From the NCBI GenBank assembly GCA_016933965.1, contig JAFGTS010000011.1:1-64000 (forward strand): DNA of 64,000 nucleotides, written 5' to 3'. The notes below the pieces were generated by a model. The model made no database searches, was not told the DNA's origin, and was given only the letters and a program-made list of their open reading frames with translations. Positions 18,896 through 63,390 of the stretch are shown in pieces. Made by a program: the position numbers and the translations under genes. This DNA is from Deltaproteobacteria bacterium (GTDB lineage Bacteria > Desulfobacterota > Syntrophia > Syntrophales > UBA2210). The stretch's first letter is position 1; each line of letters opens with the position of its first letter.

Positions 18896-20236
18896 ATGAA
18901 AAAGTACCGTACCATGCTCATCTTAACCTTCATTATTGTTCTCGCGTTGGGCGCATTCTGGTTCTTCTTCACCTACTGCGAGGGGGAAAAACCATCCATA
19001 GTTATGGAATCCTTCAACGGCGTGATCGGAACCGAGGGACGGATAACGATCGATTTCATCGATACGAAGACGGGCCTTCGTGATATCGCCGTTTCAGTGA
19101 CACAGGAAGAAAACAAACATGTGCTTCATTCACTTACCTATCGGATGCGCGGAATCCATCACGAAACCGTCAGGATAGCCATACACCCCGGGGATATTCC
19201 CCTGAAGGACGGACGGGCGCGCCTCGATATGTCGGCCGTTGACTACTCTCTCAGAAAAAATACCTGTCATGCGACCCTGGATGTCGTCATTGATACCACA
19301 CCTCCTCGGATAGACCCGGTTTCCACGCAGCATTACCTTAACATGGGCGGTTCTGGTGTCGCCCTCTATCATCTCTCCGAAGAAAACACCACAACGGGAA
19401 TACTCGTCGGTGATGACTACTTTCAGGCATATCCATTCGTCATCAATGGGGCGAAGGGATATGTCTGTTACTTTGCCTGCCCCCTCGAGCTCGAGGAAAA
19501 CGATATCAGTCTCAACATCATCGCGGAAGACGCAGCGGGCAATCGTTCTCTCTGCTCACTTCCCCATCATGTCCGCGACAGGAAATTCAAACGTGACACC
19601 ATGAACATCAGCATGAGCTTCCTGGAGAAAAAAATGCCCGAATTTCGGAGGATGATCAAGGGTATGGAGCAGGCATCCCTTCTCGAGGTGTTCAGGTATG
19701 TCAATGATACGATGCGACAGGATAATTTCAAAACAGTTCAGCAGATCTGCAGTACATCTGAACCGCGGCAACTGTGGGAAGGAACGTTTCTCAGGATGAA
19801 GAATTCCGCCCCGATGGCCCTGTTCGGGGACCGGCGTACCTATTGCTGCGAGGGGAGCGATCTGGGAAAAAGCGTACATCTCGGTGTCGACCTTGCCTCG
19901 GTCCAATGCGCTCCCGTTGAGGCAGCGAACACGGGAATGGTCGTGTTCGCCGATTACCTCGGCATATACGGAAATACGGTTATCATTGACCACGGCCTCG
20001 GGCTTTTCAGTTTTTACGCGCACCTTTCATCGATAAATGTAGCAACGGGCGAAGGGATCAACAGGGGTGACATTATCGGAAAGACGGGAACTACGGGCCT
20101 GGCAGGCGGTGATCACCTGCACTTCGGCATGTACGTCGGGAACAGGTTCGTCAATCCCCAGGAATGGTGGGACCCCCACTGGATCCGGGACAATGTGACG
20201 AAGAAGATGGAAGGGATTAACGGATTAACGGATTAA
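18896..20236 (+). CDS. M23 family peptidoglycan endopeptidase, membrane-anchored
   Basis: The 446-residue protein has an N-terminal membrane helix (7-27), then a Cys-containing extracytoplasmic region that may include Ig-like folds (TPPRIDP), and a C-terminal LytM/M23 domain. The zinc ligands are visible as His328 and Asp332 in HLGVDLA and His409 in GGDHLHFGMY, with His376 in FYAHLSS. It likely trims cross-links in the periplasm. AAGGGGAG precedes the ATG. Its last codons (GINGLTD and TAA) are formed by the tandem repeat that starts at 20214. Confidence 0.92.
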   Translation: MKKYRTMLILTFIIVLALGAFWFFFTYCEGEKPSIVMESFNGVIGTEGRITIDFIDTKTGLRDIAVSVTQEENKHVLHSLTYRMRGIHHETVRIAIHPGDIPLKDGRARLDMSAVDYSLRKNTCHATLDVVIDTTPPRIDPVSTQHYLNMGGSGVALYHLSEENTTTGILVGDDYFQAYPFVINGAKGYVCYFACPLELEENDISLNIIAEDAAGNRSLCSLPHHVRDRKFKRDTMNISMSFLEKKMPEFRRMIKGMEQASLLEVFRYVNDTMRQDNFKTVQQICSTSEPRQLWEGTFLRMKNSAPMALFGDRRTYCCEGSDLGKSVHLGVDLASVQCAPVEAANTGMVVFADYLGIYGNTVIIDHGLGLFSFYAHLSSINVATGEGINRGDIIGKTGTTGLAGGDHLHFGMYVGNRFVNPQEWWDPHWIRDNVTKKMEGINGLTD

Positions 20237-20349
20237 CGGATTAAGGGATTAAGGGATTAAGGGATTAAGGGATTAGGGGATTAGGGGATTAGGTAATCCG
20301 TAACCCGTAACCCGTAACCCGTAATCCGTAACCCGTAATCCGTAATACC
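20214..20349. repeat. Inverted tandem-repeat array: ten GGATTAAN octamers then eight TAATCCG heptamers
   Basis: From 20214 to 20293 there are ten consecutive 8-base units (GGATTAAC x3, GGATTAAG x4, GGATTAGG x3). From 20294 the period changes to 7 with TAATCCG/TAACCCG units, the last one degenerate. The halves are mutually complementary, so the transcript can form a long imperfect hairpin between the convergent M23 gene and rapZ. The array supplies the M23 stop codon. It ends 4 bases from the rapZ stop. Confidence 0.97.
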
Positions 20350-20352
20350 GTT

Positions 20353-21219
20353 TTACCCCCTCCCGATATCCCGATGATTGATGGTTACTGAATATTCCTT
20401 GCCGGCGAAGTGCTGTGCGAGTTGGTTGAGAATGACCACGGAGCGGTGTTTTCCACCGGTGCAGCCGATGGCGATGGTCAAATAGGATTTCCCCTCCTTT
20501 TCAAAAAGCGGCATCAAGAAATCAACCATATCGAGGAGTCGCTTGACAAAACGTTTCGTGTCGGCCCATTTCATGACATACTGTTCCACTTTCTCGTCGT
20601 TACCGTCGTACTTCTTCAGGTCTTTGACAAAATAGGGGTTGGGGAGGAACCGTACATCAAACACCATGTCCGCTTCCAGAGGAAGTCCGAAGCGGTAACC
20701 GAAGGACATCAGGTGAACGGTCATCTTTTTCCCTTCGGCGGGTGCGAGATAATACTGCTGAACCAGTTCCTTCAATTTATGTACATTGTAGTGAGATGAA
20801 TCGAGAACGGTGTCGGCCATTTCTCTCAATGGCGCGAGCGAAAGGCGTTCAACCTTGATACTTTCAAGAATGGAGCCTTTTTCGGAAACCGGATGGACCC
20901 GGCGTGTTTCACTGAACCGGTGAAGGAGTTCCTCATCACCTGCTTCGAGAAAGAGAATTTCTATTCTGAACTTTCTTTTTTTGAGACGTGAGATCACCTC
21001 GAGATAATTTTCAAGGAAATATTTTTCCCGCAGGTCCATGACAATGGCCACTTTTGATATCTCGCTCGTGGCACCCGACTGCATTTCAAGAAATTTTTCC
21101 AGGAGAAGGATGGGGAGGTTGTCGACACAAAAAAAACCGATATCTTCAAGGGCCCGGAGAGCGGTGCTCTTTCCTGACCCGGAGAGACCGGTTACGATGA
21201 CGACCCGAAGATTCTTCAT
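20353..21219 (-). CDS. rapZ: RapZ/YvcJ RNase adapter protein, nucleotide-binding
   Basis: The product has 288 residues from MKNLRVVIVTG. It shows a P-loop GLSGSGKS, the family region DNLPILLLEKF, the FLEAGDEELLHRFSETRRVHP stretch and the C-terminal signature IGCTGGKHRSVVI. An upstream in-frame start adding 18 residues is less family-like. In enterobacteria RapZ controls GlmS synthesis through small RNAs; elsewhere it binds nucleotides. It is the last gene of the rpoN-hpf-ptsN-rapZ order seen across proteobacteria. Confidence 0.94.
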   Translation of the reverse strand: MKNLRVVIVTGLSGSGKSTALRALEDIGFFCVDNLPILLLEKFLEMQSGATSEISKVAIVMDLREKYFLENYLEVISRLKKRKFRIEILFLEAGDEELLHRFSETRRVHPVSEKGSILESIKVERLSLAPLREMADTVLDSSHYNVHKLKELVQQYYLAPAEGKKMTVHLMSFGYRFGLPLEADMVFDVRFLPNPYFVKDLKKYDGNDEKVEQYVMKWADTKRFVKRLLDMVDFLMPLFEKEGKSYLTIAIGCTGGKHRSVVILNQLAQHFAGKEYSVTINHRDIGRG

Positions 21220-30373: not shown

Positions 30374-30597
30374 AGTGGCAAAGGGGCAAAGCGACAAAGT
30401 GGCAAAGTGAAAAATTCACGAGACCCCGTGCAGATCCCTTTTGAAGTTGCCATTGAAACTTTTTTTAAGGGTGCGGGATTCAAGAATCAGGAATTGTTAT
30501 TCGGAAAATCAGTATTGCTTTACAGTTGCGTTGGTGCTTCTGTCTTATGTTTTGTGATTTTCACTACGTCGCTTTGTCGCTTTGCCCCTTTGCCACT
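30374..30597. repeat. MITE-like element: inverted GGCAAAG-type arrays flanking a 172-base core
   Basis: A 26-base arm (30374-30399) made of octamer units such as GGCAAAGG/GGCAAAGC/GACAAAGT recurs as an exact reverse complement at 30572-30597, and the match continues imperfectly inward (AGTGAAAA ... TCAC). The core encodes nothing convincing. The element fills most of the 396-base gap between xerD and the second pilin and ends 6 bases from that gene's stop codon. No target-site duplication was identified. Confidence 0.85.
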
Positions 30598-31151: not shown

Positions 31152-31206
31152 GGATTACGGATTACGGATTAGAGGATTACGGATTACGTATCCCGAATCA
31201 CGATTT
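31152..31206 (-). repeat. TAATCCG/GGATTAC tandem array with leader
   Basis: Five units (GGATTAC x2, GGATTAGA, GGATTAC x2) lie at 31152-31187. On the minus strand they are preceded by ATCGTGATTCGGGATACG, resembling the leader of the arrays at 37681 and 44912. It lies in the 329-base gap between the two pilin genes; the rest of that gap holds a second short array (31216) and the pilA terminator. Confidence 0.9.
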
Positions 31207-37680: not shown

Positions 37681-37741
37681 ATCGGGATTCGTAATCCGTA
37701 ATCCGTAATCCGTAATCCGTAATCCTCTAATCCATAATCCA
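37681..37741 (+). repeat. TAATCCG tandem array with leader
   Basis: Leader ATCGGGATTCG (37681-37691) is followed by four exact TAATCCG units, TAATCCTC and two TAATCCA units. It lies in the 249-base gap between comEC and hisS, about 100 bases after the comEC stop. Confidence 0.95.
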
Positions 37742-41722: not shown

Positions 41723-41762
41723 GGTTTCAAGGGTTCAAGGGGTCGAGGGGTCGAGGGGTCAG
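41723..41762 (+). repeat. GGGGTCGA-type octamer array
   Basis: Five contiguous 8-base units drift in sequence: GGTTTCAA, GGGTTCAA, GGGGTCGA, GGGGTCGA, GGGGTCAG. It is placed between the LysM terminator and the SMR gene. Confidence 0.8.
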
Positions 41763-44911: not shown

Positions 44912-44982
44912 GATCGAGATTCGTGAATCGGGATCCGGGGTCCGTTAATCCGTAATCCGCTAATCCGCTAATCCGTAATCCG
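44912..44982 (+). repeat. TAATCCG tandem array with leader
   Basis: The leader GATCGAGATTCGTGAATCGG is followed by GATCCGGGGTCCGT and five TAATCCG/TAATCCGC units (44946-44982). It lies between proW and adk. A GTGAGGC-type motif on the minus strand (45005-45026) follows, similar to one at 31125-31139 near the array of 31152. Confidence 0.93.
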
Positions 44983-57499: not shown

Positions 57500-60400
57500 T
57501 CACAATGCCTTATCGATCAACGCCCGCACCTCGCCGATCTCCCTCGCCAATGCAAATTTCCAAATACCATAGGTTCCATCAGCATTCACTGCATTTACCC
57601 ACCTCTGAGCTGCTTGTGTTTTGACTTCCGTCAAATCGTCAAAACCCTTTGTTTCAAGTATCAGGTGAATAATAGGTGCGGTTTTCAGGCGAATAATGAA
57701 GTCAGGAATGTAATCATGGGGCTGGCCATTATGCAGATAAGGGATTGCAAAGCCGAGTCCGGTGTTTTTCACGAAGGCATCTACCATCTTATGAGAGTCG
57801 ATCAGATAGGTTGCGGACTGCTCCCATACTTTGGTATCGGCCACGGCGTAATTAAGATGGCTATTCACTACTTCACGAACATCTTTGCTTGTCCAATAGT
57901 CTACATCAGCAGTAGAACCAGGGCCACGATTGGTTTCATAACGCGGCACCTCCGGGGTTTCTCCTTGCGAGGTATCCGGTTTTATCGCTTCTATCAAGCG
58001 CTCTATCACCCAGCCATAATAGGGTGAAAGAAACACATCCAGGATATTGGCCGGTGCAATCGGTCTGACCTTTTTCTTGAGATAGTTCTTTACGATCCTT
58101 GCTATCTGAGGAAATAACACATGTACCGGCACCTCGCAACCCGGCTGAGAAGCATAATCATGTATCAGGTCCCGAGCCAGTTGAAAGGTCAGCTCCTGAA
58201 ATCTACGCCCCTGCCGATACGGATTCAGATCCACATTTTCCAGTTTACCCGGCCCAGTCAGTGAATAGCGTCCATTATTGTTGGGAAGCCCGGCCTTCAT
58301 CTGCACTTCTGGTGGAATTTTAAGTGGATCAAGATCGAGTGTTGCAATGGCATTCCAGTCAACGGTGATGCGATTGTGGATTGCCTGCCTGTAGCCATCC
58401 ACACGGGGAAAGGTAATTTCAAACCGTGCCTTGGCAGGAACGGCGTTTACATGGTAGCGTTTGGGAGGCTTTGTCGTTGTGCCGCCTGTGTTCTCCTTGA
58501 ATGGGATCACCTCGAATGGTACGCCGAAGACCTTTGCCACCTCTTCGGTCAGTTTGCCGTCTTCTCCGACCTGATAGCTGGAACGCCGCAATCCACGCCC
58601 CACTACCTGCTCGCAAAGCAGTTGTGACATGAAAGGACGCAGGCCGATAATATGAGTGACGGTGCTGCAATCCCACCCCTCGGTCAGCATTCCTACGCTG
58701 ACAATACAGCGCACATCCCGCCCCGGTGGGTGCAAGGGGCGGTTCAGTTTCTGCGCCAGCACCTCGAATCCTTCCGGGTAGAGTTGCCTCCCCTGCTTAT
58801 CCATCGGCCAGGCAATTTTCCCCACCGTGTCTAGGGTAAGGCGCATCCAGGTTGATTCGTCTCCCTTGCTCTCACCAGAATCGGTTTCGTGGATAACCTT
58901 GGAGTCAACTCGGATGGTGTATGTTGTGTCATCGGTATTGTGAAATGCTGCTATTCCCGCAGAGGGAATACCTGCCGGTTTCACATCATAGGCCAACCAT
59001 TCGTGGATCATCTTGGCAATTTTGGTGTTCTTGCAAACCAGGATAAACACTGGCGGACGGGGGTCTTCACTGTTATTCTCCCATTCTTGCCACAGATCAT
59101 CCCAAAGACCGGCCAACATGGCAATCGGCGTATTGACCCATTTCAGGATAGCTTCCGGTTTAGGGCTCCCTTTTTTGCCACCACGTTCAGCGGGGGTCAA
59201 CTTGGGGAGAATCCAGCGCCAGACGTTGAAATAACCAGGTATCTCCGCCCCGGTGGTATCCCGTACTGCAAGCTGAGGGATCTTTACCAGACCTGATTCA
59301 ATGGCGTCGGTCAGACCAAAATCGCTGACTACCCAAGGAAACGTGCGGTTGGTCTCCTGTCCCACCCGCCCCAGGTAATAGGGTGTTGCCGACAGATCGA
59401 CGCAGAAGTTGATCTTTCGCAACTTGTGTATTCGGTCCAGGCCATCAATCCAGACAGTTGCCTCTTTGAAGAACTCTTCGCTTTCCTCGGCCTCACCAAA
59501 CAGATCGTCCTCAGTTTCCTCTGCTTCGGGACGAGAAATTCGGTAGGCATGGTGCGCTTCATCGTTAAATACCAGGATGTTCTTTTTGCCGCCCACTTCC
59601 CGCCCCAAAACCCGGTTAATCATTGCGGTATCGCTTTCAACATACTTTAGCGATTCCACGAAAACCTTTTTCAGGTTACCATGCTTGTCCTTATCTTCGC
59701 TAATAAGGGTCAGCATCCCCGCGTCCAACTGCTTCTGAAAATCCTCCAAGGTGAGATAGCGCTTGCCCCGCGCCGTGGTAGTCTTTTTGCCGATGATAAT
59801 GGTCTCCTTCATCCGGATCGGAACACCTGTCTTCGTTACCTTGGCTCCGGTTCCGCCGGTCTTCACTCCTTGCGGCTCAAATATATGCCAGTTAGTCATC
59901 ATCACGCGACCCTTTGCAAGGTCGGGCATCAGGTGCGGCGGCACAAGATCACGAGTCCGATACAGGCTCGCTTCACCCCTGGACGGGTCAAGCTCCTGCA
60001 AACGGTTACGGATGGTAACGTTGGGACAGACGATCAAGATTACGTCGGAATACACGGCGTTCATCCGATCATTTACCTTATTCAGAATGCTCCATGCCGC
60101 CAGCATTCCCATGACGGTGGTCTTGCCCGAACCGGTGGCCATTTTACAGGCGTAACGCTGAAAGGCGCTGAACCCCTCGGCCTTGCGCTCGTCGCTTACA
60201 TCATCAAGTGGTATGTCGATCCCTTGCAGGAAATCTCCCCGCGCCTCGTTCAGGAAGATAATCGTCTCAGCCGCCTCAATCTGGGCGAAGAACAGCCGGT
60301 GCTGCCGCCCATCACGCCGCCAGTAATTGAGAAGTTCCTGTGTGGTGCGGGTAACACCCCCTTCACCACGGAGTGCCAGAGTCCGCCACTCCTTGACTCC

Positions 60401-60616
60401 CACCCGGATCTGGTTGACCAGAGTCAGTTCAAGCCACAGACCACGGGCTCCTTGAGCGGCATCGCTGGACGGTGCCTTGGGGTCACGGTAAAAATAACCT
60501 GCCATGCGGCGCCCCTTCCTCCGTTCAGGTTGGTGTCCCTCCTCGATGTACCAATGTTCAGCGGGTTCGTAGTAGGGGGAGTTCAGTATCGGTTGATTAA
60601 CCTCAAAGCCGCTCAT
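57500..60616 (-). CDS. Type III-like restriction enzyme subunit (Res, BPTD_3080-like)
   Basis: The 1038-residue SF2 helicase-nuclease has Walker A ATGSGKTT (160-167), DEAH in VFNDEAHHAYR (352-355), motif III VDLSATPYYLG and motif VI EQVVGRGLRR. A C-terminal PD-(D/E)xK-type site is formed by PDFIIRL and HLILETKGFD near residue 990-1010. It overlaps the methyltransferase gene by 4 bases, so the two are coupled. It would cut DNA lacking the partner's methylation. Confidence 0.9.
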   Translation of the reverse strand: MSGFEVNQPILNSPYYEPAEHWYIEEGHQPERRKGRRMAGYFYRDPKAPSSDAAQGARGLWLELTLVNQIRVGVKEWRTLALRGEGGVTRTTQELLNYWRRDGRQHRLFFAQIEAAETIIFLNEARGDFLQGIDIPLDDVSDERKAEGFSAFQRYACKMATGSGKTTVMGMLAAWSILNKVNDRMNAVYSDVILIVCPNVTIRNRLQELDPSRGEASLYRTRDLVPPHLMPDLAKGRVMMTNWHIFEPQGVKTGGTGAKVTKTGVPIRMKETIIIGKKTTTARGKRYLTLEDFQKQLDAGMLTLISEDKDKHGNLKKVFVESLKYVESDTAMINRVLGREVGGKKNILVFNDEAHHAYRISRPEAEETEDDLFGEAEESEEFFKEATVWIDGLDRIHKLRKINFCVDLSATPYYLGRVGQETNRTFPWVVSDFGLTDAIESGLVKIPQLAVRDTTGAEIPGYFNVWRWILPKLTPAERGGKKGSPKPEAILKWVNTPIAMLAGLWDDLWQEWENNSEDPRPPVFILVCKNTKIAKMIHEWLAYDVKPAGIPSAGIAAFHNTDDTTYTIRVDSKVIHETDSGESKGDESTWMRLTLDTVGKIAWPMDKQGRQLYPEGFEVLAQKLNRPLHPPGRDVRCIVSVGMLTEGWDCSTVTHIIGLRPFMSQLLCEQVVGRGLRRSSYQVGEDGKLTEEVAKVFGVPFEVIPFKENTGGTTTKPPKRYHVNAVPAKARFEITFPRVDGYRQAIHNRITVDWNAIATLDLDPLKIPPEVQMKAGLPNNNGRYSLTGPGKLENVDLNPYRQGRRFQELTFQLARDLIHDYASQPGCEVPVHVLFPQIARIVKNYLKKKVRPIAPANILDVFLSPYYGWVIERLIEAIKPDTSQGETPEVPRYETNRGPGSTADVDYWTSKDVREVVNSHLNYAVADTKVWEQSATYLIDSHKMVDAFVKNTGLGFAIPYLHNGQPHDYIPDFIIRLKTAPIIHLILETKGFDDLTEVKTQAAQRWVNAVNADGTYGIWKFALAREIGEVRALIDKAL

Positions 60617-63390
60617 CCGTTGGCCTCCTTCAGGCTCTTAATAACTTGCAGCTCATTCCCCCGGTCGTCTATCACCTTGATGGCGACCTGTGTATTCTCA
60701 CCGGCGTCAAAGGGTGCGCTCATGGTTCCGGCCAGATGATCCCAGACACTCTCTTCGTGGGTGGATTTGAGCGCCTTTTTCAGGTTATCCCAAGCGTTGG
60801 TGCGGGGGAAGAAAGCTTGAGAAACATGGAAGCAGAGGCCGTTGTAATCCGTATCCAGAAACCAAGCTGGGACATCGTTTCCCTTTCGTTGATCGGTTTC
60901 CAGCGTTGTTGGATCAAAGACATCAAGCCCCACCAGTTCCACCTGATAGCGGACTGGATCGTCTTTACTTTCAGATTTTACCGTATGAACTTTTACTTCC
61001 GGCAGGCCGCAGACGCTGAAAATCTGACTGGATCGCATGTTTTTCAACAGGTCGCCCATCATCAGGTCGGTTGTTGCCTGCACATAAGTGGCGGGGATCA
61101 TGATCTCGGCAGCGTTTTCAATCAGCATCCTGGCGTTGGGTTGAATGGCAAAGCCGATGACATAGAGATGTGCATATCCCTTCAGGTTGGCTTCCTTCAA
61201 AGCTTCATGCACCAGTTTCTCGCTCACGGCACCGCTTTCCGGACCGAAGACAAGGGCCACCGGCTTTTGTGTCAGAGGGAGCATGCCGGAAGTTTTTTCC
61301 TCTGCCTCCTGACATAAGTCGTCTTTTAGGCTTGGCTGCGGGGCAAGTACCGACATATCCACCAGCGCTTCCGCCGAAAGCGAAAGGGTCTTGGCCGGTG
61401 GCCGGATATTTTTCAGCGTTACCGACTTACCCCCGCCCAAGTGCAGGATAGGCGATTTGCGCAACACTTCCAGCATCCGGTCGATGAAAGAGCTGTACTG
61501 CTCTGCTGCCCCTGCTCCGGAATCCTCTTCGCCGTCACCTTCCCAATCAACCGGGGTTGGAATGGTCGCCTCTACGCAGAACGGCCCGGAGACGCGGGTG
61601 ATTTTGTTTTCGATCTCCGGTCGGTCAATCAGCACCTCTTCCGCTGGCGGCTCGTTGTTGGCAATAGTCTCAAGTTTGATGTGAGGAACGATGCCACCTA
61701 CTTCCTCGCCTTTCTTGTTCTGCTTACGGACGTAGACGAACCCCCCTGCCGGACCGCGAGCCTCATCCTTCAGTTGATAATAGGGGAAGGTCGCTGTCAG
61801 GAGACGTTGCCGTGCCAGCGCCAGCGGTACGCGGGAGGTGTCACAGGTAATCCAGCGGCGGCCACTCGACTCCGCAACATAGGCGGTGGTGCCACTACCG
61901 CAGGTCATGTCCAGCACCAAGTCGCCGGGATCAGTGGTTAACAACAGGCAGCGTTCAGCTACTTTGATATTGGTCTGAACCACGTACAGCTTTTCGTCGG
62001 TAAAACTGCCTGTCAGGGTATCGGTCCATATATTGCCCCTCTCCGTATAAGGGAAGTCGTCGGCAAAACGGCGATACTGAATGCTGTTCTTTGCTCTGTG
62101 GATTCGTCCGGCAGTTGCCAGCCGTTCCATACCAGTCGGGAAATTGGCCTTCCAGTGTGAGTTAGCTCCCGGATTGTAGGTTTTCCCCTCAAATACAAAA
62201 GGCTGTGGTTCGCTGGACGCTCCTTGCGATTGTAAATCGCCTGGTTTATATAGCCTTGCTCCTTCAGGTAATGGCACCTCACGACGCTTTTCCGCGGCCG
62301 TGACACCTCGGTAACTACCATCAGGCAGGAGAACCCAGCGAGCATTCCCTTCGCCTAGCACAACAGGCTGTTCTTCATAAAGTTTGTTTACCTTGACGTG
62401 CGATTTGTCTTTTGCATACCAGAGCAGAAAATCACCAAGGGTAGCAATGGTGGTGGTTTCAAATCCAGATGTTTTCTGGAAGAAAATCTGGGAAACAAAG
62501 TTTTCCTCACCAAACACTTCATCCATAACAGCTCGCACATAATGCTGGTTAATATCACTGATCTGGACAAAAACGCTACCACGGGTATGAAGCAGGTCTT
62601 TGGCGAGCAAGAGCCGGTCTCGCAGATAGGTGAGGTATGAGTGCAAACCCAGCTCCCAGGTATCTCGATAAGCTTTGACCATCTCCGGCTCGCGGGTCAT
62701 GCTGTCGTCATCATTATGGTCCACGTTGCCCACATCTTTCTGGCGCACAAAGGGCTGAAAATTGGAGCCGAATTTCACCCCGTAGGGTGGGTCGAAGTAA
62801 AACATCTGCACCTGCCCGCCCATTCCTTCGTATTGGAGCAACGAGTTCATCACCACAAGTGAATCACCCAGAATCATCCGGTTGACCCATTTATCCTTGT
62901 ACTCGTAAGCCTTCAGGATCTGGTCGATAATAGGGTGCTGCGGATCGTCAAACAGGCTGAACATATCAAGTTGGGAGGATTGAATCTTGTGGCTCTTAAG
63001 GGTTTCGATGATTCCCTTGGTAGAGAGGCGTTCATGGACAAACAGCGGCAAGGTCGGCACATCAAAAGAAAGCCTCTCGGCCTTACCGGCCCAGTTGAGA
63101 AACGGTCTGGAAAGAACCGCCAGCTCACGCGCCGCAGCCTGAGCTTCCTCAACCGTAGCAACCTCCAAAATCCGCTTGATGAGAGTTTCCCCTTGCTCAC
63201 GAGCAGGGTTCCGGCCATCCCAGTTTAGTTCCGGGGAAAGAGAGGAATCATATTTGTATGTAGTCGGGGGTTTTTTCTTCCTGAAATTCGCCTGCGTCCC
63301 CACCTCAGGACGCATCGGGCTTTCGGCCTCGGGGTGTTTGTAGCTTTTTGCTTCAACATTGGTCACGGTAGTTTTATTGGGCTTTGCCAT
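60613..63390 (-). CDS. Type III-like site-specific DNA methyltransferase (Mod)
   Basis: The 925-residue protein has DPPY (200-203, in FYFDPPYGVKFG) before the AdoMet motif DMTCGSGTTAYVAE (494-507), the beta-class order typical of type III Mod and N6-adenine methylation. The target-recognition region should lie between them (about 290-470). The C-terminal about 350 residues are an extra domain with GFAIQPNARMLIENAAEI. It is the first gene of the restriction-modification operon. Confidence 0.9.
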   Translation of the reverse strand: MAKPNKTTVTNVEAKSYKHPEAESPMRPEVGTQANFRKKKPPTTYKYDSSLSPELNWDGRNPAREQGETLIKRILEVATVEEAQAAARELAVLSRPFLNWAGKAERLSFDVPTLPLFVHERLSTKGIIETLKSHKIQSSQLDMFSLFDDPQHPIIDQILKAYEYKDKWVNRMILGDSLVVMNSLLQYEGMGGQVQMFYFDPPYGVKFGSNFQPFVRQKDVGNVDHNDDDSMTREPEMVKAYRDTWELGLHSYLTYLRDRLLLAKDLLHTRGSVFVQISDINQHYVRAVMDEVFGEENFVSQIFFQKTSGFETTTIATLGDFLLWYAKDKSHVKVNKLYEEQPVVLGEGNARWVLLPDGSYRGVTAAEKRREVPLPEGARLYKPGDLQSQGASSEPQPFVFEGKTYNPGANSHWKANFPTGMERLATAGRIHRAKNSIQYRRFADDFPYTERGNIWTDTLTGSFTDEKLYVVQTNIKVAERCLLLTTDPGDLVLDMTCGSGTTAYVAESSGRRWITCDTSRVPLALARQRLLTATFPYYQLKDEARGPAGGFVYVRKQNKKGEEVGGIVPHIKLETIANNEPPAEEVLIDRPEIENKITRVSGPFCVEATIPTPVDWEGDGEEDSGAGAAEQYSSFIDRMLEVLRKSPILHLGGGKSVTLKNIRPPAKTLSLSAEALVDMSVLAPQPSLKDDLCQEAEEKTSGMLPLTQKPVALVFGPESGAVSEKLVHEALKEANLKGYAHLYVIGFAIQPNARMLIENAAEIMIPATYVQATTDLMMGDLLKNMRSSQIFSVCGLPEVKVHTVKSESKDDPVRYQVELVGLDVFDPTTLETDQRKGNDVPAWFLDTDYNGLCFHVSQAFFPRTNAWDNLKKALKSTHEESVWDHLAGTMSAPFDAGENTQVAIKVIDDRGNELQVIKSLKEANG

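Follow-up and report, generated by a model that had tools for sequence, protein, structure and literature searches.

Several heptamer units coexist as tandem repeats (STRR) in the genome of the cyanobacterium Calothrix, and a different class of intergenic sequences, the REP, BIME and REPIN elements, is made up of inverted pairs of short palindromes that accompany RAYT transposases. Dispersed and mostly intergenic tandem heptamers have been described from Xanthomonas (GGGAATC) and Nostoc (GGGGA(C/T)T) by Rehm et al. 2015 (PMC4692102), who found that the repeats lie nearer to the open reading frame on the 5' side of their G-rich strand, that some of them overlap stop codons, and that Xanthomonas holds 70-75 convergent inverted pairs per genome, with a mode of four units. 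No functional class of neighbouring genes was apparent; G-quadruplexes were proposed, and both the function of the repeats and the question of what makes heptamer arrays appear again and again in the gaps of bacteria, frequently as convergent pairs, were left open (PMC4692102). A further case is presented by the TAACTGA direct repeats of Beggiatoaceae, cyanobacteria and Bacteroidetes (MacGregor 2015, PMC4679880).

Here we describe a paired array found in a 64-kb stretch of DNA (the window, meaning the whole stretch analysed), together with further arrays of the same genome (2.85 Mb in 55 contigs, 96.7% complete). What is distinctive in this genome is that several unrelated repeat words share one inward-facing pattern that is not accounted for by simple base-pairing. 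The genome thereby separates candidate reasons for such arrays: polarity is kept without complementarity, which argues against hairpins, and without G tracts, which argues against G-quadruplexes, while polarity in divergent as well as convergent gaps speaks against terminators, and the period is locked at 7-8 nt for unrelated words. We consider the arrays a variant of the Xanthomonas/Nostoc kind of repeat and not a G-quadruplex repeat, because they share its placement features and lack its G tracts and its scarcity in divergent gaps. The initial annotation of the window had supposed a comparable heptamer family to be new, which does not hold, given the described kin in Xanthomonas (GGGAATC) and Nostoc (PMC4692102) and the occurrence of exact (GGATTAC)n in many phyla; our literature search found no published account of GGATTAC arrays.

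The array pair between the M23 peptidase and rapZ genes

The array at positions 20214-20349 of the window is confirmed as a real feature. On direct reading of the sequence, its left arm (20214-20293, + strand) consists of ten 8-nt units, three GGATTAAC, four GGATTAAG and three GGATTAGG, such that seven of the ten conform to GGATTAAN (three with AAC, four with AAG) and the remaining three to GGATTAGG. The right arm (20294-20349, - strand) runs in the opposite orientation and abuts the left one without a spacer; seven regular 7-nt units at 20294-20342, three TAATCCG and four TAACCCG, are followed by a degenerate eighth, TAATACC. TRF resolves the locus into period 8 with 10.1 copies (20211-20291) and period 7 with 7.6 copies (20293-20345). 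The initial annotation had reported ten copies of one octamer followed by eight TAATCCG heptamers: its ten units, with their ten-fold period of 8, its opposite orientation and its direct junction all stand, while the octamers prove to be of three variants and the heptamers to comprise seven regular units of two kinds and a degenerate one.

The same annotation was right that the array writes the end of a gene. The M23 peptidase gene (18896-20236, + strand; NF052529, E 1.8e-82) has its last codons and stop within the array, the TAA at 20234-20236 falling inside the third octamer, and the open reading frame ends in KKMEGINGLTD* where relatives have, e.g., RKLSGEG*. The other end of the array, as had also been noted, adjoins the stop codon (20353-20355, - strand) of the convergent rapZ gene (20353-21219, - strand; NF003828, 358 bits), at a distance of 3 nt. 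The RNA of the locus is predicted to fold with -60.4 kcal/mol (z -3.4), which no shuffle equalled. The earlier judgement that this is neither a usual terminator nor a REP element is borne out, in that the strong stem is accompanied by no U-tract pattern of an intrinsic terminator, and in that the arms are tandem arrays, as opposed to the palindromic words of REP, BIME and REPIN elements, in a genome with only one Y1_Tnp gene.

Elsewhere in the window, GGATTA units form three further arrays and other octamers another three. The former comprise a GGATTAC array between two pilin-like genes (31152-31188, + strand), followed by units of the CGAATCACGA type in opposite orientation, a GGATTAC array between comEC and hisS (37690-37740, - strand, reading GTAATCC on the + strand), and a mixed 7/8-nt array between adk and an ABC permease gene (44941-44982, - strand). 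A second family of 8-nt units, AAAGTGGC/AAAGCGAC, forms the left partner (30374-30409, + strand) of an inverted GTCGCTTT array in the same gap (30568-30592, - strand), and a third, TCAAGGGG, also of 8 nt (41727-41761, + strand), lies downstream of a hairpin that by eye resembles an intrinsic terminator.

Families, placement and polarity across the genome

A genome search for further GGATTA-type arrays, which had been proposed as a check on the locus, found many: 121 matches to a three-unit 7-nt pattern (GGATTANGGATTANGGATTA) compared with 1 for the same pattern read backwards, and 31 compared with 1 for its 8-nt version. Within 838 kb of the genome, 123 arrays of at least three units were assigned to six families (GGATTAN(N), AAAGNGNC, GGGAWTC, AGTGCCTR, AAGGGNTC and GCGTKAR), with the reversed-sequence control giving 4; this sample was picked mostly around GGATTA matches, which inflates array densities in the genome, and the family expressions were composed after looking at the data, whereas the GC-skew test given below was untuned. 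An assembly artefact is ruled out by the more than 100 loci and by arrays at the M23-rapZ gap of other genomes, and a DNA uptake sequence by the frequency of GGATTA outside arrays (259 observed, 290 expected).

Analysis of gap arrays by TRF, which is blind to the unit, returned period 7 in 58 cases, period 8 in 30, periods of 14-16 (sums of 7 and 8) in 16 and periods of 9-10 in 2, with periods 9-13 nearly absent. The likeness to the 7-nt units of Xanthomonas and Nostoc is therefore partial (58 gap arrays of period 7, but also 30 of period 8), and the genome further differs from those systems in that at least six families coexist and that periods 7 and 8 are mixed even within one array. As far as the general description of the Calothrix STRR goes, they too combine several units in one genome. 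The GGATTA unit is common to about 70 sampled loci, and its arrays share with the Xanthomonas/Nostoc repeats a mode of four units (19 arrays), followed by five (16); across all families three units are commonest, three being also the detection threshold. Within GGATTA units the variant fraction is 0 at GG, compared with 0.29 at the free base in position 7, and the main units of the genome, GGATTAC, AAAGTGGC and AGTGCCTA, contain no GGG and have no three-tetrad capacity, unlike those of Xanthomonas and Nostoc.

Placement was scored against gene calls from a home-made hexamer model, in which gene starts are approximate. As in Xanthomonas and Nostoc, the arrays are intergenic genome-wide: 117 of the 123 lie in gaps flanked by two called genes, 1 is coding and 5 are at the ends of stretches. 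They are likewise polarised with respect to the nearer gene, since the unit strand reads from that gene into the gap in 90 arrays and the opposite way in 27 (n=117, p 4e-9), an edge rule followed by GGATTA (49:19), AAAGNGNC (23:1) and AGTGCCTR (8:1) and absent in the small AAGGGNTC set (2:4). Median distances are 11 nt beside stop codons and 120 nt beside start codons. Forty arrays begin no more than 16 nt from a stop, and in these the unit, judged by eye, often extends across the stop codon itself, with first units such as aagtgaC-AAAGGGGC, ggattaa-GGATTAC and gtgcctga-GTGCCTGA. The TAACTGA repeats are similar in being genome-wide intergenic heptamer arrays of unknown origin, but they have one fixed unit, are almost always direct and lie mostly just upstream of starts, whereas the arrays described here adjoin stops and form inverted pairs.

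Where a gap holds several arrays, neighbours follow the order + then - in 24 cases and - then + in none, four divergent gaps included. None of 20000 permutations reached this order, and the GC-skew test, which disregards the unit, gave 28:0. Convergent inverted pairs are thus a further likeness to Xanthomonas and Nostoc; in contrast to those systems, pair members here often differ in unit. Both members belong to the same family in only 12 of the 24 head-to-head pairs, which is close to chance (permutation mean 10.0, p 0.2), so that the conserved feature is something other than arm complementarity. Within-pair polarity is strict in this genome and arm complementarity is not required; a hairpin of complementary arms, as the conserved property, is ruled out by the composition of the pairs.

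Gaps with arrays are long, with medians of 277 nt (codirectional) and 236 nt (convergent) compared with 40 and 41 nt for gaps without. Arrays occur in 22% of divergent gaps (17/76), 20% of convergent gaps and 9% of codirectional gaps (51/549), whereas the Xanthomonas/Nostoc repeats are under-represented between divergent open reading frames.

The M23-rapZ gap in relatives and GGATTAC arrays elsewhere

The M23-rapZ neighbourhood is conserved in the order, and the relatives compared here are genomes of the same order belonging to other genera. In most of them the gap is short: array-free gaps measure 9 nt from stop to stop in G006, G009 and G012, and 11-19 nt in several others. Other relatives carry different units at the same position, namely GGTTCAC in G008, GGAGTAA in G016, AAGGGTTC in G029 (CAAGGGTC...GAACCCTT) and AAGGWAC in G032 (AAGGAAC...CTTGCAC), and degenerate array-like stretches are seen in G014 and G035. 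Among the genomes compared, two congeners come closest to showing a step of growth, as GGAGTAA follows the M23 stop once in G017 and about three times in G016. Identical unit counts among relatives and a lack of other genomic copies, which the initial annotation had named as the outcome that would tell against its reading, are thus not what was found, as the genome has many copies and arrays in the same gap differ among relatives.

Arrays rewrite gene ends, and since the arrays that extend over the M23 C-terminus differ between several genomes of the order, this gap could be used to time array birth. In G032 (L089) translation continues into the heptamer array, which gives the M23 peptidase a long new tail at its C-terminus (IKVKGTRYKVQG). 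A gap of 240 nt in G001 (L083) is occupied by a non-tandem insert that looks rich in hairpins.

Counted with their own units, 7/8-nt arrays reach densities of 24.5 per 100 kb in G029 and 15.2 per 100 kb in G032. A unit-blind test of these two genomes showed a weak edge rule (38:20 together) and a weak or mixed order rule, with orientation taken from GC skew, which is a poor guide for their AT-rich units. Arrays were few in the random first contigs sampled from ten members of the family.

Arrays of exact GGATTAC units are spread over many phyla, ranging from Vibrionaceae to Chloroflexota as well as candidate phyla, and are present in 3 of 395 sampled genomes of the same phylum, with 20 matches here and 2 and 1 in the others. 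A single match among 2.9 million viral contigs rules out a phage-borne family. The edge rule was not seen in unrelated bacteria with exact GGATTAC arrays (37:34 in 71 gap arrays), which rules out a universal rule, and an inverted partner is infrequent in these genomes (downstream in 7 cases, upstream in 1). Because the unrelated genomes have neither the edge rule nor frequent pairing, the GGATTAC word is a common property across phyla, whereas paired, polarised arrays are not.

Origin of the arrays and alternative explanations

The explanation that we hold to be probable, if only just, is that gene borders undergo tandem duplication and slippage in steps of 7-8 nt, and that units have in addition spread between loci. 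The M23-rapZ feature would then be one head-to-head pair of a genome-wide intergenic set of 7- and 8-nt arrays. Arrays would be born at gene borders, often over or just past a stop codon, where a tandem duplication of 7-8 nt may be tolerated, and would grow by slippage, with propagated copying errors giving runs of identical variants (AAC three times, AAG four times, AGG three times) and switches between periods 7 and 8. The occupation of many loci by few unit words, chiefly GGATTA plus one or two free bases, would reflect spread or homogenisation between loci. At the M23-rapZ locus an ancestral gap, probably of 9-30 nt, would have been filled with about 130 nt of array and the ancestral M23 stop replaced, and any effect of an RNA hairpin on the two convergent transcripts would be secondary.

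Slippage and tandem duplication are favoured because of the variant runs, the 7/8 switches within an array, the comparison of the congeners and the arrays that run through a stop codon. The choice between slippage and templated addition had been left open in the initial annotation; for growth the evidence now favours slippage, and RVT_1 and Ku genes were not found. We infer that arrays grow by slippage and spread between loci without a dedicated function. Slippage from local seeds leaves unaccounted for the sharing of GGATTA by about 70 sampled loci, the strict 24:0 order, which holds also beside start codons, and the fixed GG with a free position 7; these features suggest that units are exchanged between loci, or that the underlying process is itself polar. 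Against the favoured explanation stand also the weak order rule in G029 and G032 and the absence of the edge rule in unrelated GGATTAC genomes (37:34).

Alternatively, the inverted arms may constitute a selected RNA element whose long hairpin terminates or protects the two convergent transcripts, as a bidirectional terminator or mRNA stabiliser. This is consistent with the stable fold of the locus (-60.4 kcal/mol, z -3.4), the closeness of arrays to stop codons and their presence in 20% of convergent as compared with 9% of codirectional gaps. We nevertheless think it unlikely, and a terminator role is improbable as an account of the arrays in general, because these are just as frequent (22%) in divergent gaps, where there are no 3' ends, because arms are often unpairable, with the same unit in only 12 of the 24 head-to-head pairs (mean 10.0, p 0.2), and because there is no U-tract. 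Some array gaps moreover contain, by eye, a separate canonical terminator (L047 8675; window 41670).

The contents of the gaps suggest another possibility, rather doubtful in our estimation, whereby the arrays form the borders or the targets of miniature mobile elements, with small palindromic elements and 23S_rRNA_IVP genes inserting between the arms. Palindromic dispersed modules, e.g. GTCATTCCCGCG...CGGAATGACA and GCCGATTTATCGGCG, which may be REP-like, occur in 35 of 73 array gaps compared with 8 of 131 array-free gaps (gaps of at least 150 nt; p 5e-12). In 105 array-module comparisons the module is on the inner side of the array, and in 7 on the outer side (112 comparisons, not independent). 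Both 23S_rRNA_IVP genes of the genome (PF05635, four-helix bundle) are also situated between inverted arrays, and this bracketing of modules and IVP genes sets the arrays apart from the Xanthomonas/Nostoc repeats. However, the same module is found with different arrays or none, the two borders often differ in unit, 38 array gaps have no module, the genome has one Y1_Tnp gene only, and the window's own M23-rapZ pair has no insert between its arms. The IVP genes (L043 9599-10078; L065 16171-16672) each lie alone in their gap in the manner of cargo, with border arrays of different families, one of GGATTA and one of AAAGCGAC. Nested palindromic modules resembling MITEs or REPs are seen at L073 7390-7545 and 10235-10370, L047 8700-9000 and L075 12950-13070.

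We give little weight to the idea that gene borders are extended in units of 7-8 nt by some trans-acting process that keeps one polarity and uses the genome's current unit, which would yield inward-facing arrays of unmatched units and make the Xanthomonas/Nostoc repeats other products of the same process. It is also improbable that DNA 3' ends, broken in gaps, were extended with units and rejoined, although inward-facing arrays of independent units would result, matching the 24:0 head-to-head order with independent unit identity and the filler-like modules between arms. The copy-number difference between the congeners is local and concerns a seed of which the stop codon is a part, and searches of the 96.7% complete genome found neither reverse transcriptase (RVT_1) nor Ku family genes, so that the simplest templated end addition is left without support; RNA-templated (telomerase-like) addition and Ku end joining are accordingly retained as a weak rival only. 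A G-quadruplex element, of the kind put forward for the Xanthomonas/Nostoc repeats, would share the placement rule, the inverted pairs and the four-unit mode of GGATTA, but is barely credible here, as the main units hold at most GG (a two-tetrad structure at best) and the rule is obeyed by AAAGNGNC (23:1) and AGTGCCTR (8:1), mostly without G tracts.

Among minor observations, two hexamers are over-represented on both strands of the 838-kb sample, CTATCT/AGATAG (375 compared with 229 expected) and CAATCT/AGATTG (235 compared with 144 expected). At 57500-63390 of the window, a restriction endonuclease of the BPTD_3080 family adjoins a large protein that weakly matches a methyltransferase.
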